A DNA stretch of 64,000 bases from Dehalococcoidia bacterium (GCA_035528575.1 DATKYK010000030.1:1-64000); one strand, 5' to 3'; counted from the first letter of the stretch, positions 17,525-26,181 are shown. Numbers and translations are program-made. The notes: generated by a model not told the origin, from the sequence alone.

Positions 17525-17749
17525 TCAAAATTTTACCAGGGCTAAATTGTAAAAGGGTAAAGAGGCGCATTCGTCTAGTGGTTTAGGACACCTCCCTCTC
17601 AAGGACAAATTAGCTTTGAAGTTCACAACTCCCAGTGAACGAAGTCTGTCAACAAGTTCAGGATTTGCCTTCCTCTGTCCTGATAGAATCATTGATAAGT
17701 AGGACTTGCTGATACCGAGTTCTTTTGCTATATCGTTCTGTCTTCTCAT
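17525..17749 (-). CDS. XRE-type HTH protein; N-terminal part of an att-split HTH-recombinase gene
   Basis: In the integrated state this reads as 74 residues. Residues 3-40 form a Cro/CI HTH (NDIAKELGISKSYLSMILSG). ATG follows GAGAGG at good spacing. After residue 48 the frame enters the att core, read antisense to the tRNA (SLRGRCPKPLDECA), and ends in chromosomal sequence (LPFYNLALVKF). In the excised circle the same frame would run through the core into the recombinase at the other end of the element. In the integrated state a free HTH peptide could act as a repressor; that is inference. Confidence 0.75.
   Translation of the reverse strand: MRRQNDIAKELGISKSYLSMILSGQRKANPELVDRLRSLGVVNFKANLSLRGRCPKPLDECASLPFYNLALVKF
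17562..17605 (+). other. Left attachment site (attL) with orphan 5' part of tRNA-Glu
   Basis: These 44 bases repeat 25610-25653 with one mismatch (17579 T versus C). Bases 17564-17605 equal nt 1-42 of the intact tRNA-Glu, from the acceptor 5' strand to the anticodon 3' stem; the sequence then changes to element DNA. The original chromosomal flank, and probably the original tRNA promoter, lie to the left. Confidence 0.9.
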
Positions 17750-17813
17750 TGTTTACCTCTCTTCGGTTTTCTCTTCCTTTTATAGTCTAGGCTCAGTACT
17801 ACCCAGTCACGTC

Positions 17814-18506
17814 CTATTTTCTTGCCCTTAGCCATTCCGCTATGGCTTCTCTGACAATCTCGTCTATTTGTCTCCCCTCATCATTTGCTATGAGTTGGAG
17901 TTTCTCGTAGGTGTTAGGCGCTATGTTCATGTTAAGATTTGTGCTACTGATTTGTTGAGGTACTGTTGCTCCAATCGTCTGCTTTACAGAAGTTACCCCT
18001 TCACTTAATTCTTCAAAATAAGCTTCACGCTCAGAATCGATATATCTGTACCGCCCCATAAGCCATTTCCTACCAACAAGCTGAAGGTCACTTAAGTTGG
18101 TAACCCACTTGTCCCTGGGTAGTGGTTCAAATGGGTTGAAGTGTATGAACGCAAAACCAGCCTCGTCTTCTCTATCCCCGCCAGCAGGTTTATCATCAAC
18201 TCCACGAACGGTTGTCTTACCCCACATAGTATAATTCCCATCCGGTTGCTTAGAAATGAAGAAGACCTTCATTCCAGGATAAGCGCGAGAGCCAAATGTT
18301 CTACCCTTCGGTGTGCAACCCCAACGGTATTTAATGCGTAGGTCCTGCTCCCAGCAGTGGCCCTTACATACTTCGTCTTCTGGAGAGGGATGGCTGATTT
18401 TCACATTTTCTTCGAAGCATAGCCAGCACAAGCTATCCTTACCAGGATTTCTACATGGTGCTTCCCAACTCTGATTATTGTAGAGAACTCGAATTACTAA
18501 CCCCAT
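17814..18506 (-). CDS. Cys-rich element protein with C-terminal ribbon-helix-helix-like region
   Basis: 230 residues from ATG at 18504-18506, preceded by GAGGTGG (an upstream ATG at 18521 is contiguous with this site). The N-terminal half has Cys and His pairs (CRNPGKDSLCWLCF, CKGHCW, WGCTPKG) suggesting a zinc site, followed by a strand-rich part (MKVFFISKQPDG, YTMWGKTTV) reminiscent of PUA/ASCH-like folds, not proven. The last 45 residues (LNMNIAPNTYEKLQLIAN, IDEIVREAIAEWLRARK) look like a CopG-type RHH DNA-binding or dimerisation domain. The AT-rich repeats just upstream could be its operator. Function unknown; possibly a partition or copy-control protein. Confidence 0.6.
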   Translation of the reverse strand: MGLVIRVLYNNQSWEAPCRNPGKDSLCWLCFEENVKISHPSPEDEVCKGHCWEQDLRIKYRWGCTPKGRTFGSRAYPGMKVFFISKQPDGNYTMWGKTTVRGVDDKPAGGDREDEAGFAFIHFNPFEPLPRDKWVTNLSDLQLVGRKWLMGRYRYIDSEREAYFEELSEGVTSVKQTIGATVPQQISSTNLNMNIAPNTYEKLQLIANDEGRQIDEIVREAIAEWLRARK

Positions 18507-18526
18507 TATTAACCACCTCATACTAA

Positions 18527-18570
18527 TAGTATACTATATGATATCTTAGTGTATATAGTATCACATGATA
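18527..18570. promoter_or_regulatory. Paired operator-like repeats
   Basis: TAGTATACTATATGATAT (18527-18544) and TAGTATCACATGATAT (18556-18571) are near-direct repeats starting 29 bases apart, just upstream of the RHH-like gene. RHH repressors commonly bind such paired AT-rich sites and regulate themselves. Confidence 0.45.
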
Positions 18571-18653
18571 TAAAGATTGTCAATACCCAAGGGGTAGATT
18601 GGAGCCTAACTATGAGGTAAATGGTAAAAAGAAAAAGCCTTGTATAGCCGACA

Positions 18654-19490
18654 CTATTTGAGTTGAGAAAACTCAGTTCGATAGTCACGAGGGCATGCGT
18701 CGCATATGACTTCGGGTATTCTCGGAATGTATAAGTAAAGCTCTCTAAAAAGTCGGCGAGCCAATGTCCACATCCACTCCTTAAACATTATGTAGATTTC
18801 ATCGTCAGGTTGTGAATCCCAATATGGCTCTGGACAGTCTTTGTTTAATAATTTCCTCATATCTGTGAGATATATAGACTTATCTTTTTTCGGAAGTATT
18901 TGTATATATAGGTCTATCATATCTTCTAATTGGTCTAAATCGTTCCACAGTTCACTATCAGGGATATGCTGCTTTAAATATTTAAAAAGCGGGTTTAATT
19001 TAAAGTGCCATCTTTGGTTGTTTAGACGGCGTAGTTTGGATACCTTGCCTTTAGAGCTTGATTTTTGTTCTATTTTACAAAAATCCTTTGACCACGCCAT
19101 TATTTCTATGCCAATATCCTTTAAATTAATGAAGTGTTTTTGTAGTGCTGACTCATAGATACTGGCTGGAACAGGCACTTGGCTCTCGACCTGTTGGCTA
19201 TCATCATGCTGCCCTGATTTCAGCCGTCCTTTGGCATCCGGTCTTTCTTTTTCCACCAGAGATTGAACCTCTGGTAGCTCACTCACCAGTTTTACTAGCA
19301 ATTCTACGGGCAATTCCAATAGCTCATCTCGCACCGCTCTTATAGTGTCTCTATGGATTACTCTACCCTCTAACTCCAAAGCAATAACTGTTTTTGAAAC
19401 ATTATCCCCGTATGCCCAATGAGCCCAAATCTCTTTCCTAGTCTCCCACGATTCATTTGTCTTTGCCCAATCAGGCCCTTTTTTAGTCAT
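18654..19490 (-). CDS. Element-encoded protein of unknown function
   Basis: 278 residues, soluble. The N-terminal part (GDNVSKTVIALELEGRVIHR with WETRKEIWAHWAYG before it) resembles a short HTH, then a charged low-complexity linker (about 85-105), then a helix-rich, Trp/Tyr-rich C-terminal region (FKEWMWTLARRLFRELYLYI). No catalytic motif is visible. It is divergent from the excisionase-like gene at 19605, and the 115 bases between them hold two AGTATAAC-type repeats, so the two may share control. It could be a replication or transfer accessory; I do not recognise a family. Confidence 0.55.
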   Translation of the reverse strand: MTKKGPDWAKTNESWETRKEIWAHWAYGDNVSKTVIALELEGRVIHRDTIRAVRDELLELPVELLVKLVSELPEVQSLVEKERPDAKGRLKSGQHDDSQQVESQVPVPASIYESALQKHFINLKDIGIEIMAWSKDFCKIEQKSSSKGKVSKLRRLNNQRWHFKLNPLFKYLKQHIPDSELWNDLDQLEDMIDLYIQILPKKDKSIYLTDMRKLLNKDCPEPYWDSQPDDEIYIMFKEWMWTLARRLFRELYLYIPRIPEVICDACPRDYRTEFSQLK

Positions 19491-19531
19491 CCTCAGACCT
19501 CAGAAATTCAGCATATATTCAACATTTTATC

Positions 19532-19575
19532 AGTATAACTTAGCACATAATAGGTTCAACTAAGTATAACATAGC
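19532..19575. promoter_or_regulatory. Two direct repeats AGTATAAC(T/A)TAGC between divergent genes
   Basis: Copies at 19532-19544 and 19563-19575, 31 bases apart or about three helical turns, in the intergenic region between 18654-19490 (leftward) and 19605 (rightward). The spacing places both on one face of the helix, as for a dimeric regulator such as the MerR-like protein encoded next door. Confidence 0.4.
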
Positions 19576-19604
19576 TGCTAGGTAATATTAAAAGGAGGTG
19601 CCTT

Positions 19605-19781
19605 ATGGAAATAATGACCGTAAGCAAGGCTGCTAGGCAGGTCGGATGCTCTGAGAGGTGGCTACGACAAGCCGAGAAACAAGGTAAGATTCCCACAGCC
19701 CGTCGTGATTTGAACGGGTGGAGGGTCTATACAGAGGAAGACATTGAGAAGTTGAAGTCTTTGCTAATACCCGAAAGCTAA
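19605..19781 (+). CDS. Small MerR/excisionase-type HTH protein
   Basis: 58 residues starting MEIMTVSKAARQVGCSERWL and ending before TAA at 19779-19781. The pattern (TVSKAARQVGCSERWLRQA, then GWRVYTEEDIEKL) is that of the HTH_17 / MerR-like excisionase family: a winged HTH with a final helix starting YTEEDI. A strong AAAGGAGGTG ribosome binding site lies 4 bases before the ATG. In an element with a tyrosine recombinase it is the natural candidate for the directionality factor (Xis), or else a transcription activator of the replication genes to its right. Confidence 0.7.
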   Translation: MEIMTVSKAARQVGCSERWLRQAEKQGKIPTARRDLNGWRVYTEEDIEKLKSLLIPES

Positions 19782-19793
19782 GACAAAAAGCAA

Positions 19794-19829
19794 GCCCCGA
19801 CACGCAGCGGTCAACTGGATAGTCGGGGC
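19794..19829 (+). other. Hairpin between excisionase-like and downstream gene
   Basis: GCCCCGAC (19794-19801) pairs with GTCGGGGC (19822-19829) around a 20-base loop. No T-run follows; it may slow transcription or stabilise the downstream message. Confidence 0.4.
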
Positions 19830-19854
19830 AAGACCGAACACAGGAGGTTATCCC

Positions 19855-20262
19855 ATGCCCATTTCTGATTGTATAACTGTAACTGGGGGAAGTCAATCCT
19901 ATAGTGGGGTTATTCGTGTCCCCTCAGACGAAGGAAGCCGAATAATAGGCGTTATTCGTGATTCAACCTTCACTAAGAGCAACTGGCACTACTCCAAGCA
20001 TATGTGCTGGAAACATCACGCTATCGGCCTAGATAGGGGGGCTTTTGTCGATTATGTGAAATCCCTTGCTACCACTATCATCGTTACTGATAAGGATACC
20101 GGGCGGGAATATCGGGCGAGTGTAGAGGATTTCGAGCGGCTTTCCATTGAGGATAACCTGGGCTGGGGGCAGCAGCTCTTTTTACCTCTTAAACACTGGG
20201 AGGTCATTGAGCCTGATGGCCATAAACCCCTCCAACTTGCGTTATGGGGAGGTAGGGGGTAA
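19855..20262 (+). CDS. Element protein of unknown function upstream of RepA-like gene
   Basis: 135 residues with no recognised family. ATG follows AGGAGGTTATCCC. The sequence is soluble and mixed alpha/beta (VTGGSQSYSGVIRVPSDEG, TIIVTDKDTGREYRASVEDF, WGQQLFLPLKHWEV). Its TAA ends two bases before the ATG of the RepA-like ATPase, so the two are translationally coupled and probably work together in replication. The conserved His/Trp/Cys cluster near residues 42-55 (NWHYSKHMCWKHH) could bind metal. Function unknown. Confidence 0.6.
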   Translation: MPISDCITVTGGSQSYSGVIRVPSDEGSRIIGVIRDSTFTKSNWHYSKHMCWKHHAIGLDRGAFVDYVKSLATTIIVTDKDTGREYRASVEDFERLSIEDNLGWGQQLFLPLKHWEVIEPDGHKPLQLALWGGRG

Positions 20263-20264
20263 GG

Positions 20265-21509
20265 ATGAGCGCTCCGACAGTACATGAAAATATAGGTCAT
20301 ACGCTCCTTGTATGGGAAGAGGAGCAGTTAAGAATAATAGTCCGGCGAGTGCGGGTTAATCAACGGGATGGCAACGTAACCGGGCAAATCACGATAACAA
20401 GTGATGCTCCTAGCTTTGCGGATAATCATCATCTTCACGAATCAGGGTTTAACTTCACTTCTGCAAGTGCGAGACGAACTTTAGCGAAAGATTTAGGAGA
20501 GCGGTATCAGGAATTTGATTGGTCACGGATACTGGAGCAGTTATGCAAGGAATTGACGCATATCGTTCGTCGCGGCGAGCCAGCAGTGGAGATTTATACA
20601 AATGAAGACGTAGAACCGCCCAAGTATCTGCTATATCCTTTATTACCCCTAAACCTTCCGACCATTGTTTTTGGAGATAGCGGAGTCGGGAAATCAGAGT
20701 TTGCCTTGGTAGTAGCGACCTGCGTTCGACTTCCCTGGAGGGATAACACATTAGGGTTTGAGGTTGGCGAAGAAGGGGGCGGAGTACTTTACCTTGATTT
20801 TGAGACCGATAAGTCAGACATAGCGTGGCGATTGAAGTGCTTGCAGAGAGGCTTTAATCTACCTGATTTCTCCATCCACCACAGATATTCCACATTAAGC
20901 CTCGCCGACGATATAGAGCAAATCCAAGAGATAATATCCCAAAAAAAAGTTAAGCTCATTATTGTTGACAGCCTCGGAGCGGCCTGCGGTGGAGACCTTA
21001 ATGCTGCGGATGTGGCCCTTCGCTTCTTCAACGCCTTACGCTCCCTTAAGACAACAACCCTAATAATCGCCCACACATCGAAAGACCCTAATGTGAAGCA
21101 GAAGACAATCTTCGGCTCTGCGTTCTTTAAGGCTGCGGCACGCTCAGTATGGGAGTGCCGAAAAGCGCAGGAGACTGGTGAGGATGATATAAGCATAGCC
21201 CTTTTCCATCAAAAGGCCAATATATCGAAACTTCACCAACCCATCGGCTTCAAGTTCTCCTTTGAAACAGACAAGACTTATTGCAGGCAGCAAGATGTGA
21301 AGGGTGTTGCAGAATTCAGAGATGCGTTATCTGCCGCTGTTCAAATACGGGATGTCCTGAAAAGAGGAGCTATGTCAACAGAGGAGATACAGGATGAGAC
21401 AGCACTAGCGAAAGATACCATACGCAAGACCTTGAATCGGATGAAGGACCGGGGAGAGGTCATCAAACTAGGAACGCATAAATGGGGGTTAGCTTCCCAT
21501 GAAGAATAA
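20265..21509 (+). CDS. RepA-like hexameric AAA ATPase / plasmid replication helicase with C-terminal winged HTH
   Basis: 414 residues. A RecA-like ATPase core spans about 120-345, with Walker A GDSGVGKS (137-144), a GVLYLDFETDKS strand and Walker B LIIVDS (231-236), then LIIAHTSKD as sensor. This order matches the AAA_25 / RepA family of plasmid and phage helicases. The last 70 residues form a winged HTH (MSTEEIQDETALAKDTIRKTL) that could recognise the origin. The iteron cluster starts 10 bases after its stop, as expected if the protein acts in initiation there. ATG at 20265 is coupled to the preceding gene. Confidence 0.8.
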   Translation: MSAPTVHENIGHTLLVWEEEQLRIIVRRVRVNQRDGNVTGQITITSDAPSFADNHHLHESGFNFTSASARRTLAKDLGERYQEFDWSRILEQLCKELTHIVRRGEPAVEIYTNEDVEPPKYLLYPLLPLNLPTIVFGDSGVGKSEFALVVATCVRLPWRDNTLGFEVGEEGGGVLYLDFETDKSDIAWRLKCLQRGFNLPDFSIHHRYSTLSLADDIEQIQEIISQKKVKLIIVDSLGAACGGDLNAADVALRFFNALRSLKTTTLIIAHTSKDPNVKQKTIFGSAFFKAAARSVWECRKAQETGEDDISIALFHQKANISKLHQPIGFKFSFETDKTYCRQQDVKGVAEFRDALSAAVQIRDVLKRGAMSTEEIQDETALAKDTIRKTLNRMKDRGEVIKLGTHKWGLASHEE

Positions 21510-21518
21510 CGTGACACA

Positions 21519-21703
21519 AAAACGGGACAGGGGTATATATATATACCCCCCTGTCCTGTCCTGTTTTTGGGACGTCACGGGACACCTGTCCCGTTGTCCC
21601 GTTTTATAGCTAAGAATTTGAGGCTTAGCTATGAGGAAGTGTCCCGTTTTCAAAGCCCTTCAAAACCCTCAAAATGGGGGTGTCCCGCCAACTGTCCCGT
21701 TTT
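21519..21703. repeat. Iteron cluster, putative replication origin
   Basis: The 11-mer TGTCCCGTTTT occurs on the plus strand at 21595-21605, 21640-21650 and 21693-21703 and inverted at 21519-21529. Partial copies lie at 21587-21595, 21681-21688 and further out at 21905. Between the first copies is a long palindrome, gacaggggtatatat and its complement, near 21526-21554, with an AT-rich centre that could melt. Iterons directly after a RepA-like gene are typical of plasmid origins. Confidence 0.75.
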
Positions 21704-21924
21704 GCAGGTTACATATTCCATGCTACTATGCCAGATTATACATATTAACCAGCTATACCATTTCTCACCATCGCCCCAGGCTTAGAATTAGGCTAAAGCG
21801 CTCGTATTTGACCTGTACTGGCTACGTGTTTATATTCGAGGGATATTTTTATATGGCCAGGTGCGGAGCTGGGAGGTCGAATAGTGATTCTCGACTGGTG
21901 AGCTTGTCCCGTCGAATTTTGCGT

Positions 21925-22010
21925 TGAATAGCTATAAGAATTAATATGAAAAAGCCCGTGAATAGCTATAAGAATCAACTTTGAATAAGCCATTGAATAG
22001 CTATGGTATT
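21925..22010 (+). repeat. Three tandem repeats of about 34-35 bp
   Basis: TGAATAGCTATAAGAAT recurs at 21925 and 21959, and TGAATAGCTATGGTAT at 21994, a period of 34-35 bases, with aagcc before the second and third. They lie between the iterons and the next gene and could be partition (centromere-like) or incompatibility sites. Confidence 0.65.
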
Positions 22011-22101
22011 CAATGGCGGTATGCTATTCTATCCTACCCATTCAGCCAACCTGCAGCCTTGAACCTGACAGCCTATTCACGCTCACTGGTGCCTTGAGGG
22101 A

Positions 22102-22130
22102 TTGACAGGGTATATTACGAGGTATACAAT
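22102..22130 (+). promoter_or_regulatory. Sigma-70-type promoter
   Basis: TTGACA (22102-22107), a 17-base spacer and TACAAT (22125-22130), 33 bases ahead of the ATG of the small membrane protein. Confidence 0.7.
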
Positions 22131-22162
22131 TGCTGCCACATAAAGGTCAGGAGGTAATAACG

Positions 22163-22411
22163 ATGAAAAAAGGGCGATTTGCAAAACTGCTCATATTATT
22201 TAGCACTGTTAGTTTGCTACTTTTAGTATTTTGTGGGAATCTGGTAGTATTCGCCAACGATAATGAAAACGGCCATAGGGAGATTCCTGTAGGTGGCGAT
22301 GTATATCCAGTGAGTATGCTGGATATCCTTGCACCATGGTTGGGGCTTGTGGCGTTAATGGCAGTAGCTATGGCAGTTATAGTGTTGATTAAGAGGAAGA
22401 GAGTAGCGTAG
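22163..22411 (+). CDS. Small exported protein with C-terminal membrane anchor
   Basis: 82 residues from ATG at 22163, after CAGGAGG (an upstream in-frame start at 22130 lies within the promoter). Residues 1-31 form a signal peptide (KLLILFSTVSLLLLVFCGNL, then VVFA). A short exposed stretch (NDNENGHREIPVGGDVYPVS) is followed by a hydrophobic helix ending in a basic cluster (AVIVLIKRKRVA), the layout of a C-terminally anchored surface peptide. It has its own consensus promoter and is cargo of the element. Function unknown. Confidence 0.65.
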   Translation: MKKGRFAKLLILFSTVSLLLLVFCGNLVVFANDNENGHREIPVGGDVYPVSMLDILAPWLGLVALMAVAMAVIVLIKRKRVA

Positions 22412-22440
22412 GTTTTCCAACAGCGTACGGAAAAACAACA

Positions 22441-22790
22441 GGGGCTACCCAATAATGGGTGGTCCCTATTTATACCCGCATCCTTGAGCCTGCCAGCCCA
22501 CACTACGGTATTGGCATGTATCAGACCCTCCTTACAAGAAATCACATTTTTGTAAGGGTTTTCCCCACACAAAAAGATACATACTTTCCCGACATACAAA
22601 TGGCGCATCTTGTGTTACCGTTAGTATGAGCGTTTCGCCAGAGGCGCTTCCGGTATATAGCCACAGACGGGGAAAACTGAGGATTCACATACAAAAGAAT
22701 ATAGGCTCAGGAAGTATGGTGACCTATGGTTTTGCCCAAAAATAAACCTTTAAGCGGGGCACAGAAGCCCATCTCTGGAGGTTTTTTTAT
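22441..22790 (-). repeat. Dispersed ~0.35-kb repeat, copy B
   Basis: Reverse-complement partner of 480-858; see copy A for shared blocks. One end is ggggctaccca at 22441, the other the T-rich ggaggttttttt at 22778-22788. The first 26 bases (ggggctaccc...gtgg.ccct) recur weakly at 23563, suggesting a further end fragment. Lies inside the tRNA-Glu element, with the same relation to the next gene start (23037) as copy A has to the gene at 1-371. Confidence 0.75.
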
Positions 22791-23036
22791 CGACGCACAA
22801 CCTAGTATTCACCCCGACCAGGGCGTCAGGTCAGGCTATTTCCAGTCGCACTATATTGTAAATATTGATTTATGTGAGGATACGGTACGTTGACAGAATG
22901 TATACATGATGCTATAAACTCAGTTGAGAATCCCGCACGTCAAACATCCTCGTAGTGCGTTTCCTATTGCCCCCAACATTGACAGGCAAAGCTCAACGGA
23001 GTATTAATAGTTAAATTTGGCGCTTAGAGAAAAGCT

Positions 23037-23528
23037 ATGGAATGCTCTAACTTATTACTATATTTGGGCACCATATTTATTGCCTCAGATTTAATTAGCC
23101 GTATTAGTTATCTAAGTAATGTTGGATTATTGCTTCCATTTGTCATTATTAGTCTGTTCTTATTAAAAAAAACCTTTGTCCGGAATATGAGACAGGAATC
23201 CCATTTCACTTCAGTTTGCCTGAAAATTCTCTTTTTGGTTGTTGCCCCAATTATCGTAATAATGGCGCTAATTCTTCTTTTAATTAACATCGCTCTGTTT
23301 TTACCAGGCGTCTTAGCCATTTTTATTAATGTTCTATTGAACGGCTTGTATCAATTAGAAATAAACCTGGTAGGACGTGAACGGTATATTGCACTCAGGA
23401 AGAAGTTGCTTGCGACAATGAAAAAAGAAAAGCAGATTGAAGAAAAATTGGCAACTCCTATACCTTTTCTTGGCACGATTGGATTAATGCTGGTAATCAC
23501 CAGCTTTGTTATGGAATTAGTTGGCTGA
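23037..23528 (+). CDS. Element-encoded integral membrane protein
   Basis: 163 residues with about four hydrophobic segments: 5-18, 27-43 (VGLLLPFVIISLFLLKK), 64-102 (a long stretch that could form two helices, VVAPIIVIMALILLLINIAL) and 146-161 (LGTIGLMLVITSFVME). A basic cytoplasmic loop (RKKLLATMKKEKQIEEKL) lies between. No family recognised. The codon use is AT-richer than the chromosomal genes, like its neighbours in the element. No strong ribosome binding site (AGAGAAAAGCTATGG). Confidence 0.5.
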   Translation: MECSNLLLYLGTIFIASDLISRISYLSNVGLLLPFVIISLFLLKKTFVRNMRQESHFTSVCLKILFLVVAPIIVIMALILLLINIALFLPGVLAIFINVLLNGLYQLEINLVGRERYIALRKKLLATMKKEKQIEEKLATPIPFLGTIGLMLVITSFVMELVG

Positions 23529-23818
23529 CTGCTAATATCGATGTAGATTAGAGAGAAAGTGAGGGGCTACCCGAGATAAGTGACCCCTATTACGCATCGC
23601 AGCATTGACAGGCTATGCGCCTAGGAGTATCGTCGCAATTATATGAAGGTAATGGGGTAAGGAGCCAAGGTAGGCGGATTTATAGAATGAGCTGCATGAG
23701 GAGCTTCAGGAGATACGGGGAAAAAGTGTGCCAAGGGAGTTAATCGGTATCTAAAGAGACACGGTGTACTCTTATCGCACAATAATCTCGACCGTCACGA
23801 ATCCAGAGGAGGCTCGGT

Positions 23819-24595
23819 GTGTTAACCTTTGTGTTTAAAGATGAACTTGAGAAAGTACTAAATGGGCTCTTAACCAACATCGGGAGAATCTGGCAGCTCA
23901 GTACGCTAGCTGGTTCATCTGACATTACTTTCAGTACGTATCTTGGCAGAAAAGAGTTTTTAAAGCACCACCCTGTTGATAAGATAAGGGGCTATGCAGA
24001 GACATACCCAGACCTACAGGAATATATTGATAAATATGGTCCAAGAGAAGGATTCTGGAGATATGAGAGGAGTCTGCCACGCAAGGTAAATAGACTATTG
24101 TATAAGCAAATGGTAGTACTCTTGATAACGATTTTTGAGGCTTTTATAGGAGATGTATTGCTAATCACCTTCCGTGCTGAACCAAGATGTCTTTCAAGTG
24201 GGAAGAATATATCTTGGGAGAAGATAATAGAGCTAGGGGATTATAATTCTATAATTGAATATATTGCATCGGAAAGGTGCGCTGTTGTACTTTCTGGTGA
24301 TTGGTACAAGATAGAAGCAGAGTTTAGCAGGCTTTTCAATATAGACTTAAGTGGTGAAATTGAGGAGAAAGCAATTGCAGAAATTTTTGAAATAAGGCAT
24401 GCGGTGGTACATAGGGTTGGCCTTGTTGACCAAAGGTTTATTGATAAGGTAAATTCGTCAGAATGGGGAATAAATTACAGCTCGGGTAAGGAAATAATAA
24501 TTAGTAGGCGGGAAATTCGGAGAATGGCCAGTTTTATTGAATACGCAGCTTTTACCATCTATAACCAGATAATCGCCAAATTTAAAGGGGATTAA
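23819..24595 (+). CDS. HEPN-like protein, possible ribonuclease / defence cargo
   Basis: 258 residues starting with GTG after AGAGGAGG. The C-terminal half is helical and has FEIRHAVVHRVGLVD, with R193-x4-H198 matching the Rx4-6H signature of HEPN ribonuclease domains and the common IRN/HxxxH...G(L/I)VD phrase of uncharacterised HEPN families. The N-terminal half (KQMVVLLITIFEAFIGDVLL) is also helical. HEPN proteins act as RNases in toxin-antitoxin, abortive infection and phage defence systems, so a protective cargo role is plausible but not shown. No partner antitoxin gene is visible next to it. The low-GC composition fits recent transfer. Confidence 0.6.
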   Translation: MLTFVFKDELEKVLNGLLTNIGRIWQLSTLAGSSDITFSTYLGRKEFLKHHPVDKIRGYAETYPDLQEYIDKYGPREGFWRYERSLPRKVNRLLYKQMVVLLITIFEAFIGDVLLITFRAEPRCLSSGKNISWEKIIELGDYNSIIEYIASERCAVVLSGDWYKIEAEFSRLFNIDLSGEIEEKAIAEIFEIRHAVVHRVGLVDQRFIDKVNSSEWGINYSSGKEIIISRREIRRMASFIEYAAFTIYNQIIAKFKGD

Positions 24596-24798
24596 TAATC
24601 AGCCGAATTAAATAGATAACAATTCTTACTTTATAAAGGCAAGTCCCCTCTTAATAGCTACCCAGCATCCCTTCACCCCAATGGCGGCTTATAAAACTTC
24701 AGGCTATCGTTAAAGCTTACCGACCTGGTATATCTTTGTACCATCTATAGAATTCAGATACGATTTAGACCATCTCCCTACTAAGGATAATTTCATAT

Positions 24799-25707
24799 TT
24801 AGTTGTTCACAAACAGTTCACAGTGATTTATTCGACGATAGAGGCTCAATGCCTCATCGAAGTTAAGCGATTTTGAATACTTCTCTACCATCGTGATATT
24901 CTCCCATCCACCTAGAGCTTGGACTATTCTCGTAGACAAGCCTGATTTAACCTGGTGGACACAAAAGCCTCGTCTGAAGGCATGAGCATTACATTGTATG
25001 CCAGTCTCAACCTTAAGTCTCTTGAGCATAGTCTGAGTGCCACCTTTGTTAATCTCAAAGTTATCGTGAGTGCTAAACCAGTCTCTTACCAGACCATTAC
25101 CAGCAAGGCACTTCCGATAGCGATTACCCTTGCCTAATACGACCACAGTTCCCTCTCCCCAGTCAAAGTCCTTAGCTCTTACATTCACAGCTTCCGATAG
25201 CCTAGTGCCTGAATACCATAAGAAGCTAATAAGAGCCCTATCCCGTTCACAATGACAATGAGCCAGCAAGGTGTCTAGCTGCTCCTTTGACACAGCAGGC
25301 AGTAGCTTCTTTTGCGTCTTAGGTGGTGAGACCTTCTCAATAATGTTCTCAGGTATGTAACCATTCTGATATAACCATCTGGATAGTGCTCTAATGCAGG
25401 AGTAGAACTTGGCCTTACCATTCCCGCATCTAAGACTAGCCAGATAGCTGTTTATGCCTTCAGGGGTAATAGGATAGCCAACGAAGTTGTCTAGGGTGTA
25501 ATGGTAGCTTTCAATGCTTCTGTAGCTTGCCCCTTGTGGACGGGATATGATAAACTTGTCGAGTAGCTCGGTTGTGAACTTTGTGAACTTTTTACCATCA
25601 TCGACACGTGAGGCGCATTCGTCTAGCGGTTTAGGACACCTCCCTCTCAAGGAGGAGATCACGGGTTCGAATCCCGTATGCGCTACCAATAAGCACCTCA
25701 TCGCCAT
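24799..25707 (-). CDS. Tyrosine recombinase (integrase) of the tRNA-Glu element; 5' end replaced on integration
   Basis: Catalytic residues in the 302-residue frame: R169 (SGTRLSEA), K193 (LGKGNRYR), H242 and R245 (HAFRRGF), W268 (GGW) and Y277 (MVEKYSKS); the core-binding domain lies at about 48-130. Residues 1-18 are chromosomal or antisense to the tRNA-Glu 3' half, and 19-33 (SLRGRCPKPLDECAS) are the att core read antisense. No ATG, GTG or TTG follows within the next 60 or so codons. The native start is therefore probably the HTH at 17749, reached only in the excised circle, giving 332 residues. In the integrated state expression could only start from ATG at 25707 or 25701, in flanking DNA. 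Confidence 0.88.
   Translation of the reverse strand: MAMRCLLVAHTGFEPVISSLRGRCPKPLDECASRVDDGKKFTKFTTELLDKFIISRPQGASYRSIESYHYTLDNFVGYPITPEGINSYLASLRCGNGKAKFYSCIRALSRWLYQNGYIPENIIEKVSPPKTQKKLLPAVSKEQLDTLLAHCHCERDRALISFLWYSGTRLSEAVNVRAKDFDWGEGTVVVLGKGNRYRKCLAGNGLVRDWFSTHDNFEINKGGTQTMLKRLKVETGIQCNAHAFRRGFCVHQVKSGLSTRIVQALGGWENITMVEKYSKSLNFDEALSLYRRINHCELFVNN
25610..25653 (+). other. Right attachment site (attR)
   Basis: 44-bp core shared with 17562-17605 (one mismatch). It forms the 5' part of the intact tRNA-Glu, so everything upstream of this tRNA, including its promoter, now comes from the element. Just inside it are ttgtgaact direct repeats (25572-25589), and agttcacaact lies just inside attL (17619-17629); these could be arm-type recombinase sites. 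Confidence 0.88.
25612..25688 (+). tRNA. tRNA-Glu (anticodon CTC)
   Basis: Acceptor GGCGCAT pairs with ATGCGCT (with one G-U), anticodon stem CCTCC/GGAGG with loop CTCTCAA (anticodon CTC), T arm ACGGG TTCGAAT CCCGT, discriminator A at 25685 and an encoded CCA at 25686-25688. It is the integration target of the element to its left. Confidence 0.95.
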
Positions 25708-25713
25708 GACATC

Positions 25714-26181
25714 CTAGCGGAGCCGAGTAACGGCGATAAAGATGGCAAGGGCAAGACCGATGAGGGTGTAGAAGCTTAACCAGGGGACGAAAAGGTAGTA
25801 GACAGTAAAGCTTGTCGCTACACTGATGCCGGCGATGGTTTGTAGGCCGGGGCCGCGCTTCCGGTTAGTGGCAAGGCTGATGAGTTCACCTATAGCATAG
25901 CCGATACCTGCCGCTATTAAGAGGGAGAGGAATAGGAAGGGTACCGCCCTCCAGATCAGGGCCCAGACAAATCCGGCAGCAGTGGCGACAGCAATGCCAA
26001 CCCCCACGGCAATCAGATAATGCCGCAGGGATATCTCATAGGTCGGCAGGCGTTTCAGATTCGCACAGCCAGGGCAACGCGGTCCTACAAGCGTCTGCAC
26101 CACGCATTTCGGGCAGATGGGGTTCCCACAACGGCCACAACTAAGGTTTGTTTCCACCTCCGGGTGGGTCAAGCATATCAT
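25714..26181 (-). CDS. Zinc-ribbon membrane protein
   Basis: 155 residues. The N-terminus has a B-box-like zinc site (CLTHPEVETNLSCGRCGNPI, CPKCVVQT, CPGC) followed by three to four hydrophobic segments (LIAVGVGIAVATAAGFVWAL, FLFLSLLIAAGIGYAIGEL, SVATSFTVYYLFVPWL and FYTLIGLALAIFIAVTRL). Proteins of this layout are common in Gram-positive bacteria and Chloroflexota, with unknown function, perhaps linked to membrane proteolysis or trafficking. Its ATG overlaps the plsY stop by 4 bases, so it is translationally coupled to plsY. Cysteines are reduced in the cytosol here, so zinc binding inside the cell is likely. Confidence 0.75.
   Translation of the reverse strand: MICLTHPEVETNLSCGRCGNPICPKCVVQTLVGPRCPGCANLKRLPTYEISLRHYLIAVGVGIAVATAAGFVWALIWRAVPFLFLSLLIAAGIGYAIGELISLATNRKRGPGLQTIAGISVATSFTVYYLFVPWLSFYTLIGLALAIFIAVTRLR

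Follow-up and report, generated by a model that had tools for sequence, protein, structure and literature searches.

A plasmid-like integrative element of Dehalococcoidia whose tyrosine integrase gene very probably spans its own attP

Recombinases that disrupt their own gene have been reviewed as exclusively archaeal and of a single origin (Badel 2021, PMC8371274). In these suicidal, or SSV-type, integrases, known from SSV1/2, pTN3 and pT26-2, an attP of 40-50 bp that is often tRNA-derived lies in the integrase gene, integration separates Int(N) from an Int(C) that holds the catalytic part, and leaving is thought to depend on the intact integrase of a relative (PMC8371274). For the myxophage Mx8, the accounts of Tojo 1996 and Magrini 1999, as cited in PMC4383910 and PMC6070905, place attP at the 3' end of int, where integration alters the C-terminus of IntP and the enzyme is active. 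In ICEclc and ICEKp1, int lies beside a tRNA at one end of the element, and a promoter at the opposite end drives it only after circularisation (PMC13023037). Mycobacteriophages with integration-dependent immunity such as BPs carry attP in the repressor gene (PMC4557955), and in the Dehalococcoides ssrA islands with dsiB the integrase gene overlaps the att site (PMC3146451). We found no report in the open-access literature of a bacterial integrase that loses its start codon and N-terminal domain by integration.

Analysis of a 64,000-nt stretch of DNA from a Dehalococcoidia bacterium (GCA_035528575.1, DATKYK010000030.1:1-64000; hereafter the window) showed an integrated element inserted in a tRNA-Glu gene and bounded by a direct repeat of two 44-bp cores with a single C/T mismatch (Table 1). 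In three genomes from the window's family (G001, G013 and G004) the site is empty: the histidine kinase, the tRNA-Glu and the genes downstream of it match those of the window but are directly adjacent, confirming both the insertion and the ends of the element. The HEPN-like cargo protein weakly matches the HEPN protein of DRT (reverse-transcriptase) defence systems.

Table 1. Features of the integrated element and its target in the window (positions counted from the first nucleotide of the window)
Feature	Position	Strand	Evidence
Integrated element, 8,048 bp including one core	17562-25609		44-bp direct repeat at tRNA; empty site in three same-family genomes; excised circle predicted
Left att core, 5' half of tRNA-Glu with one mismatch	17562-17605		
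5' part of integrase gene: start codon, XRE-type HTH, linker	17606-17749	-	Pfam HTH_3, 1.9e-7
Inverted repeat GTTCAC-N8-GTGAAC beside core, HTH side; putative arm-type site	17621-17640		GTTCAC/GTGAAC sites common to the window's subfamily
29-aa remnant of excisionase-like gene; TGA overlaps ATG of the HTH (ATGA)	17746-17835	-	Homology to full-length genes
235-aa element protein with C-terminal RHH-like stretch (sub-threshold)	17814-18521	-	
58-aa MerR/excisionase-like DNA-binding protein	19605-19781	+	
AAA_25 (RepA/helicase-like) ATPase, plasmid-like replication gene	20265-21509	+	Pfam, 3.4e-25
HEPN-like cargo protein	23819-24595	+	Weak match
3' part of integrase gene: core-binding and catalytic domains	24799-25609	-	Pfam Phage_integrase, 1.3e-20
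Direct repeat GTGAACtttGTGAAC beside core, recombinase side; putative arm-type site	25574-25588		
Right att core, inside intact tRNA gene	25610-25653		
tRNA-Glu (CTC), integration target	25612-25688	+	ARAGORN

When the HTH frame (17749 to 17606, 144 nt), the core (17562-17605) and the recombinase frame (25609 to 24799) were joined in silico as in an excised circle, all three fell in one phase, with the core translated as SLRGRCPKPLDECA between HTH and recombinase. A preliminary description of this locus had claimed that the att core splits an HTH-recombinase gene and cuts the integrase off from its own start, and the in-phase joined frame, the empty sites and the comparison of relatives below bear this out. 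Its length of 999 nt for the joined frame is correct but comprises 332 codons and a stop codon, not 333 open codons, and its 44-bp core in the same phase at both ends holds except for the claimed identity. Likewise, its statement that element DNA offers the recombinase no start before the core-binding domain is right past the right core, where the window has no in-frame ATG, GTG or TTG as far as residue +50 of the recombinase part, but not for the core itself, which holds one in-frame TTG without a Shine-Dalgarno sequence. The HTH begins at an ATG at 17749 with a good ribosome-binding site (AGAGAGG), and after integration its frame extends across the core and a further 12 codons of host DNA, giving a 74-aa ORF (17525-17749). 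At the other end, the window's host flank contains an in-frame ATG at 25707 with a weak AGGA upstream, located directly past the stop of a host gene (25714-26181); since this ATG could start a 302-aa recombinase without the HTH, the integrated copy may not be silent. Together with the relatives described below, these features of the genome sequence make it very probable, in our view, that the window contains a plasmid-like integrative element with attP located inside its own tyrosine integrase gene.

The recombinase part has the R-K-H-R-H/W-Y residues and two-domain fold of a tyrosine recombinase, with R, K, H, R, W and Y all in place, and in an alignment of 16 recombinases the A3 columns R151, K175, H224, R227 and W250 are invariant and Y259 nearly so. 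Its AlphaFold model (pLDDT 76) has a disordered tRNA-encoded N-terminus, and a Foldseek search found it to resemble XerA and Brujita Int (5vfz), the latter among the nearest solved folds. The HTH was modelled with modest confidence as three helices followed by a disordered, low-confidence tail encoded by the core.

Relatives were collected from searches of related genomes and GTDB contigs, and circles were joined in silico where both ends were found. All 22 named relatives (GTDB contigs) are Dehalococcoidia/Chloroflexota MAGs. The rest of Chloroflexota yielded only generic recombinases as relatives, other phyla were covered by a genome-contig scan and by plasmid and phage collections, and no close relatives were found in the plasmid, phage and IMG/VR collections. 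No contig contained a contiguous gene for HTH, core and recombinase. Among elements with both ends intact and a long core, the joined junction was open and in phase through the core in 20 of 20, of which 15 read HTH, tRNA core, recombinase (type 1) and five, a sister group, read short leader, core, HTH-recombinase (type 2). Type 1 elements target tRNA-Glu (the window, L084, L085, L124) or other tRNAs (L049, Ala; L053, Arg; L134, Met; L066, Gln; L094, Phe), and one of them, L050 (Val), is a second element in the window's own genome. Type 2 is represented by L063 (Glu-TTC), L065 (Met), L104 (Arg), L105 (Lys, in a complete genome) and L068 (Phe), the last again from the window's own genome, which has at least two relatives of the split-integrase family.

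A held-out set, made up of the five previously unused loci whose cores measure 45 bp or more (L241, L245, L248, L250 and L251), was likewise open, in phase and preceded by an HTH, which in L248 is a remnant. The phases of one element match by chance in 1/3 of cases, giving (1/3)^20 = 3e-10 for the series, or ~2e-7 when only 14 target lineages are counted as independent; we therefore rejected chance alignment of the frames on the 20 in-phase junctions, held-out set included. The exception is L099, where a single base absent in the other core copy creates a stop in the recombinase-side core. Repeat pairs without a recognisable HTH or leader (L087, L090, L115, L118, L119 and L136) were set aside as decayed or spurious, since in most of them the recombinase is truncated or the interval very short. 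Repeats that are short or diverged (L072/L087, L090, L115, L118, L119, L136, L144, L235 and L237) were not counted as elements.

The tRNA itself is also read through. Where a tRNA lies directly upstream of a recombinase, 34 of 36 recombinase frames are open through 48 nt of tRNA plus the gap, compared with 10 of 72 cases for the other two frames; both failures are distant outgroup recombinases, leaving the family open in 34 of 34. The corresponding binomial value of ~1e-27 overstates the strength of this result because the counts include close relatives. About ten tRNAs serve as targets, on either strand. In a tree whose main clades are mostly well supported, type 2 forms one clade, and tRNA targets switch repeatedly, as does sense versus antisense reading of the tRNA.

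In most elements the circle provides an ATG or GTG start with a GGAGG-like site, positioned 46-55 codons before the core in type 1 and 7-16 codons before it in type 2; L084 is without a clear start, and the N-terminus of the HTH is indistinct in L248. Across the family elements, starts are conserved neither past the core nor in the host flanks, and the flanks of L049, L053, L065, L066, L068 and L094 have no ATG, GTG or TTG at all. HTH and recombinase form one unbroken frame in the element DNA of L068, L063, L065, L104 and L105, which shows that in this family both domains are encoded in a single reading frame, and the type 1 core sits in the linker between these same two domains.

It is very unlikely, in our judgement, that the window instead contains two genes, a small HTH regulator that runs into the core by accident and a recombinase with its start at the core, beyond it or in the host flank. 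XRE regulators are common near integrases, and both the ATG at 25707 with its AGGA and the TTG in the core could serve such a gene; but the ATG has no conserved counterpart in other elements, and neither the uniform phase match, nor the open frame through the tRNA in every family member, nor the continuity of HTH and recombinase in the sister group fits with separate genes. The preliminary description had named two patterns that would speak against its own reading, and neither was seen: homologous recombinases do not share a start at the tRNA-flank ATG or after the core, and HTH homologues do not end unfused at the core. The split it saw in one case extends to a widespread Dehalococcoidia family. 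That the locus is a fossil, a degenerate island whose frames align by historical chance, is scarcely credible: the same genome does contain related copies with stops and truncated recombinases, but here the catalytic residues are intact and the cores 98% identical, and close homologues in unrelated families share the design.

A further alternative agrees that the gene is split and departs from our reading only in what the split does. According to this proposal, which we regard as unlikely, integration would act as a state-dependent switch of regulation and N-terminal domain, comparable to the promoter switching of ICEclc/ICEKp1 or to Mx8 IntP, and the integrated form would still make a shorter active recombinase, transcribed from the host or the tRNA and translated from a fortuitous start. 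Integration does leave the core-binding and catalytic domains intact, many elements are co-directional with the tRNA, and the position of the window's host ATG just past a host stop codon would suit such expression. Against it stand host flanks that lack a conserved start with a ribosome-binding site, including the six flanks without any start codon. The stronger claim that the integrated form makes no active integrase is speculative, as is a role of the free 74-aa HTH as a self-repressor.

Reading the locus as an integrase gene split at its attP, we compared it with the described systems. The family shares with SSV-type integrases an attP inside the integrase ORF and a gene split on integration. 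Unlike those, its recombinase is assigned by Pfam to PF00589 with no match to Phage_integr_3 (PF16795), the monophyletic archaeal family; its hosts are Chloroflexota in 22 of 22 named relatives, not archaea; it begins with either an XRE-type HTH or a short leader; and its distal end often carries an excisionase-like gene. On this predicted layout, the family works like a suicidal integrase and is not a member of the SSV-type family. Mx8, as cited in PMC4383910 and PMC6070905, likewise has attP within the int gene of a bacterial element, but at the 3' end with replacement of the C-terminus, whereas here the core lies in the 5' part and the catalytic part is intact. ICEclc and ICEKp1 exchange only the int promoter, and int keeps its own start in both states (PMC13023037); the Dehalococcoidia family exchanges the start codon and usually a protein domain, the window having no start between the end of the core and the core-binding domain and the distal end supplying a ribosome-binding site and an upstream gene in the circle. 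As in BPs and Brujita, attP lies in coding sequence and integration alters a protein, although there the gene is the repressor and not int (PMC4557955). In integration-dependent immunity the integrated form makes a shorter, stable repressor; here a 74-aa HTH ORF persists after integration. The ssrA islands with dsiB come from the same bacterial class, but have a serine recombinase, an overlap at the 3' end and a tmRNA target (PMC3146451).

Short repeats flank the core on both sides and lie inside the coding sequence, as GTTCAC/GTGAAC in the window's subfamily and GTTAAGC/GCTTAAC in type 2, and look like putative arm-type sites of the integrase. Another GTTCAC pair is found at the extreme 3' end of the window's recombinase gene (24805-24821). 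The VKQ.VKQ leader of type 2 was rejected as an instance of protein conservation, and was not used to argue for protein selection, because the GTTAAGC DNA repeats account for it. In L050, L053b, L063, L065, L066, L068 and L105, an excisionase-like HTH_17 gene is found at the distal start or close to it. Full-length homologues of the window's remnant occupy the same place in L050, L066 and L068 and lie nearby in L065 and L105, and in L050 the stop of this gene overlaps the integrase start, as the remnant does with its ATGA. A conserved promoter upstream of the distal start was considered and rejected, as the sequence there is mostly the 3' end of the excisionase-like gene.

The in-phase joined frames, together with the in-coding repeats around the core, place attP towards the 5' end of a bacterial integrase gene, which is severed from its start and usually from its HTH domain when the element integrates. 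In the circle, where an excisionase-like gene often precedes it, the gene would be expressed from a start codon served by a ribosome-binding site, and its open frame runs through the HTH, the tRNA-derived core as a peptide linker, and the core-binding and catalytic domains. The resulting fusion protein would be the active integrase and would recombine the core with the matching tRNA gene; the sites and the empty site of this reaction are seen in the sequences. After integration the start and HTH are found at one end of the element, whereas the catalytic part follows host DNA at the opposite end, which would shut off synthesis of the full-length integrase and probably make the element self-limiting. 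Since full-length integrase would be made only from the circle, the reaction would be biased towards integration, and excision would require either an outside source of integrase or a start that host DNA happens to supply. The arm-like sites next to the core are probably bound by the HTH, replacing the usual arm-binding domain. We tentatively suggest an independently evolved bacterial class of self-splitting integrases. In it, the DNA-binding and catalytic domains would be connected by a translated tRNA core, an exchangeable linker read in sense or antisense, and integration would be a one-way switch that frees an HTH protein able to repress incoming relatives or exclude them.

Self-splitting in a bacterial family whose catalytic domain belongs to another family and whose N-terminus is an HTH would represent convergent evolution. 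Its ~20 natural variants over about ten tRNA targets provide material for understanding direction control by attP within int, as well as target switching. In annotation, such genes appear as startless recombinases with tRNA-encoded N-termini, plus orphan HTH genes.

Several related loci were noticed. The window's own genome contains ~10 isolated 3' ends of type 2 integrase genes (L217-L223; contigs C36, C9, C29, C20, C40, C22 and C24), each only the last 80-120 nt up to the stop codon and several paired 0.8-1.4 kb apart, which are perhaps att sites of nested elements, or remnants. Contig C9 of this genome also has a decaying array (L218), in which a type 2 integrase with a frameshift accompanies three cores in tandem. 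In L244 (positions 156-2408; G792 contig 63), a 750-aa frame joins an unrelated, complete tyrosine integrase of phage type, across a tRNA core, to an HTH-recombinase of the family, and probably reflects two elements in tandem at one tRNA. Finally, a second unit of 2.2 kb stands in tandem behind the full element of L053/L141 (JAUWQY010000044.1, whose contig title gives a coverage of 858), with its own HTH, excisionase-like gene and core and without a recombinase.
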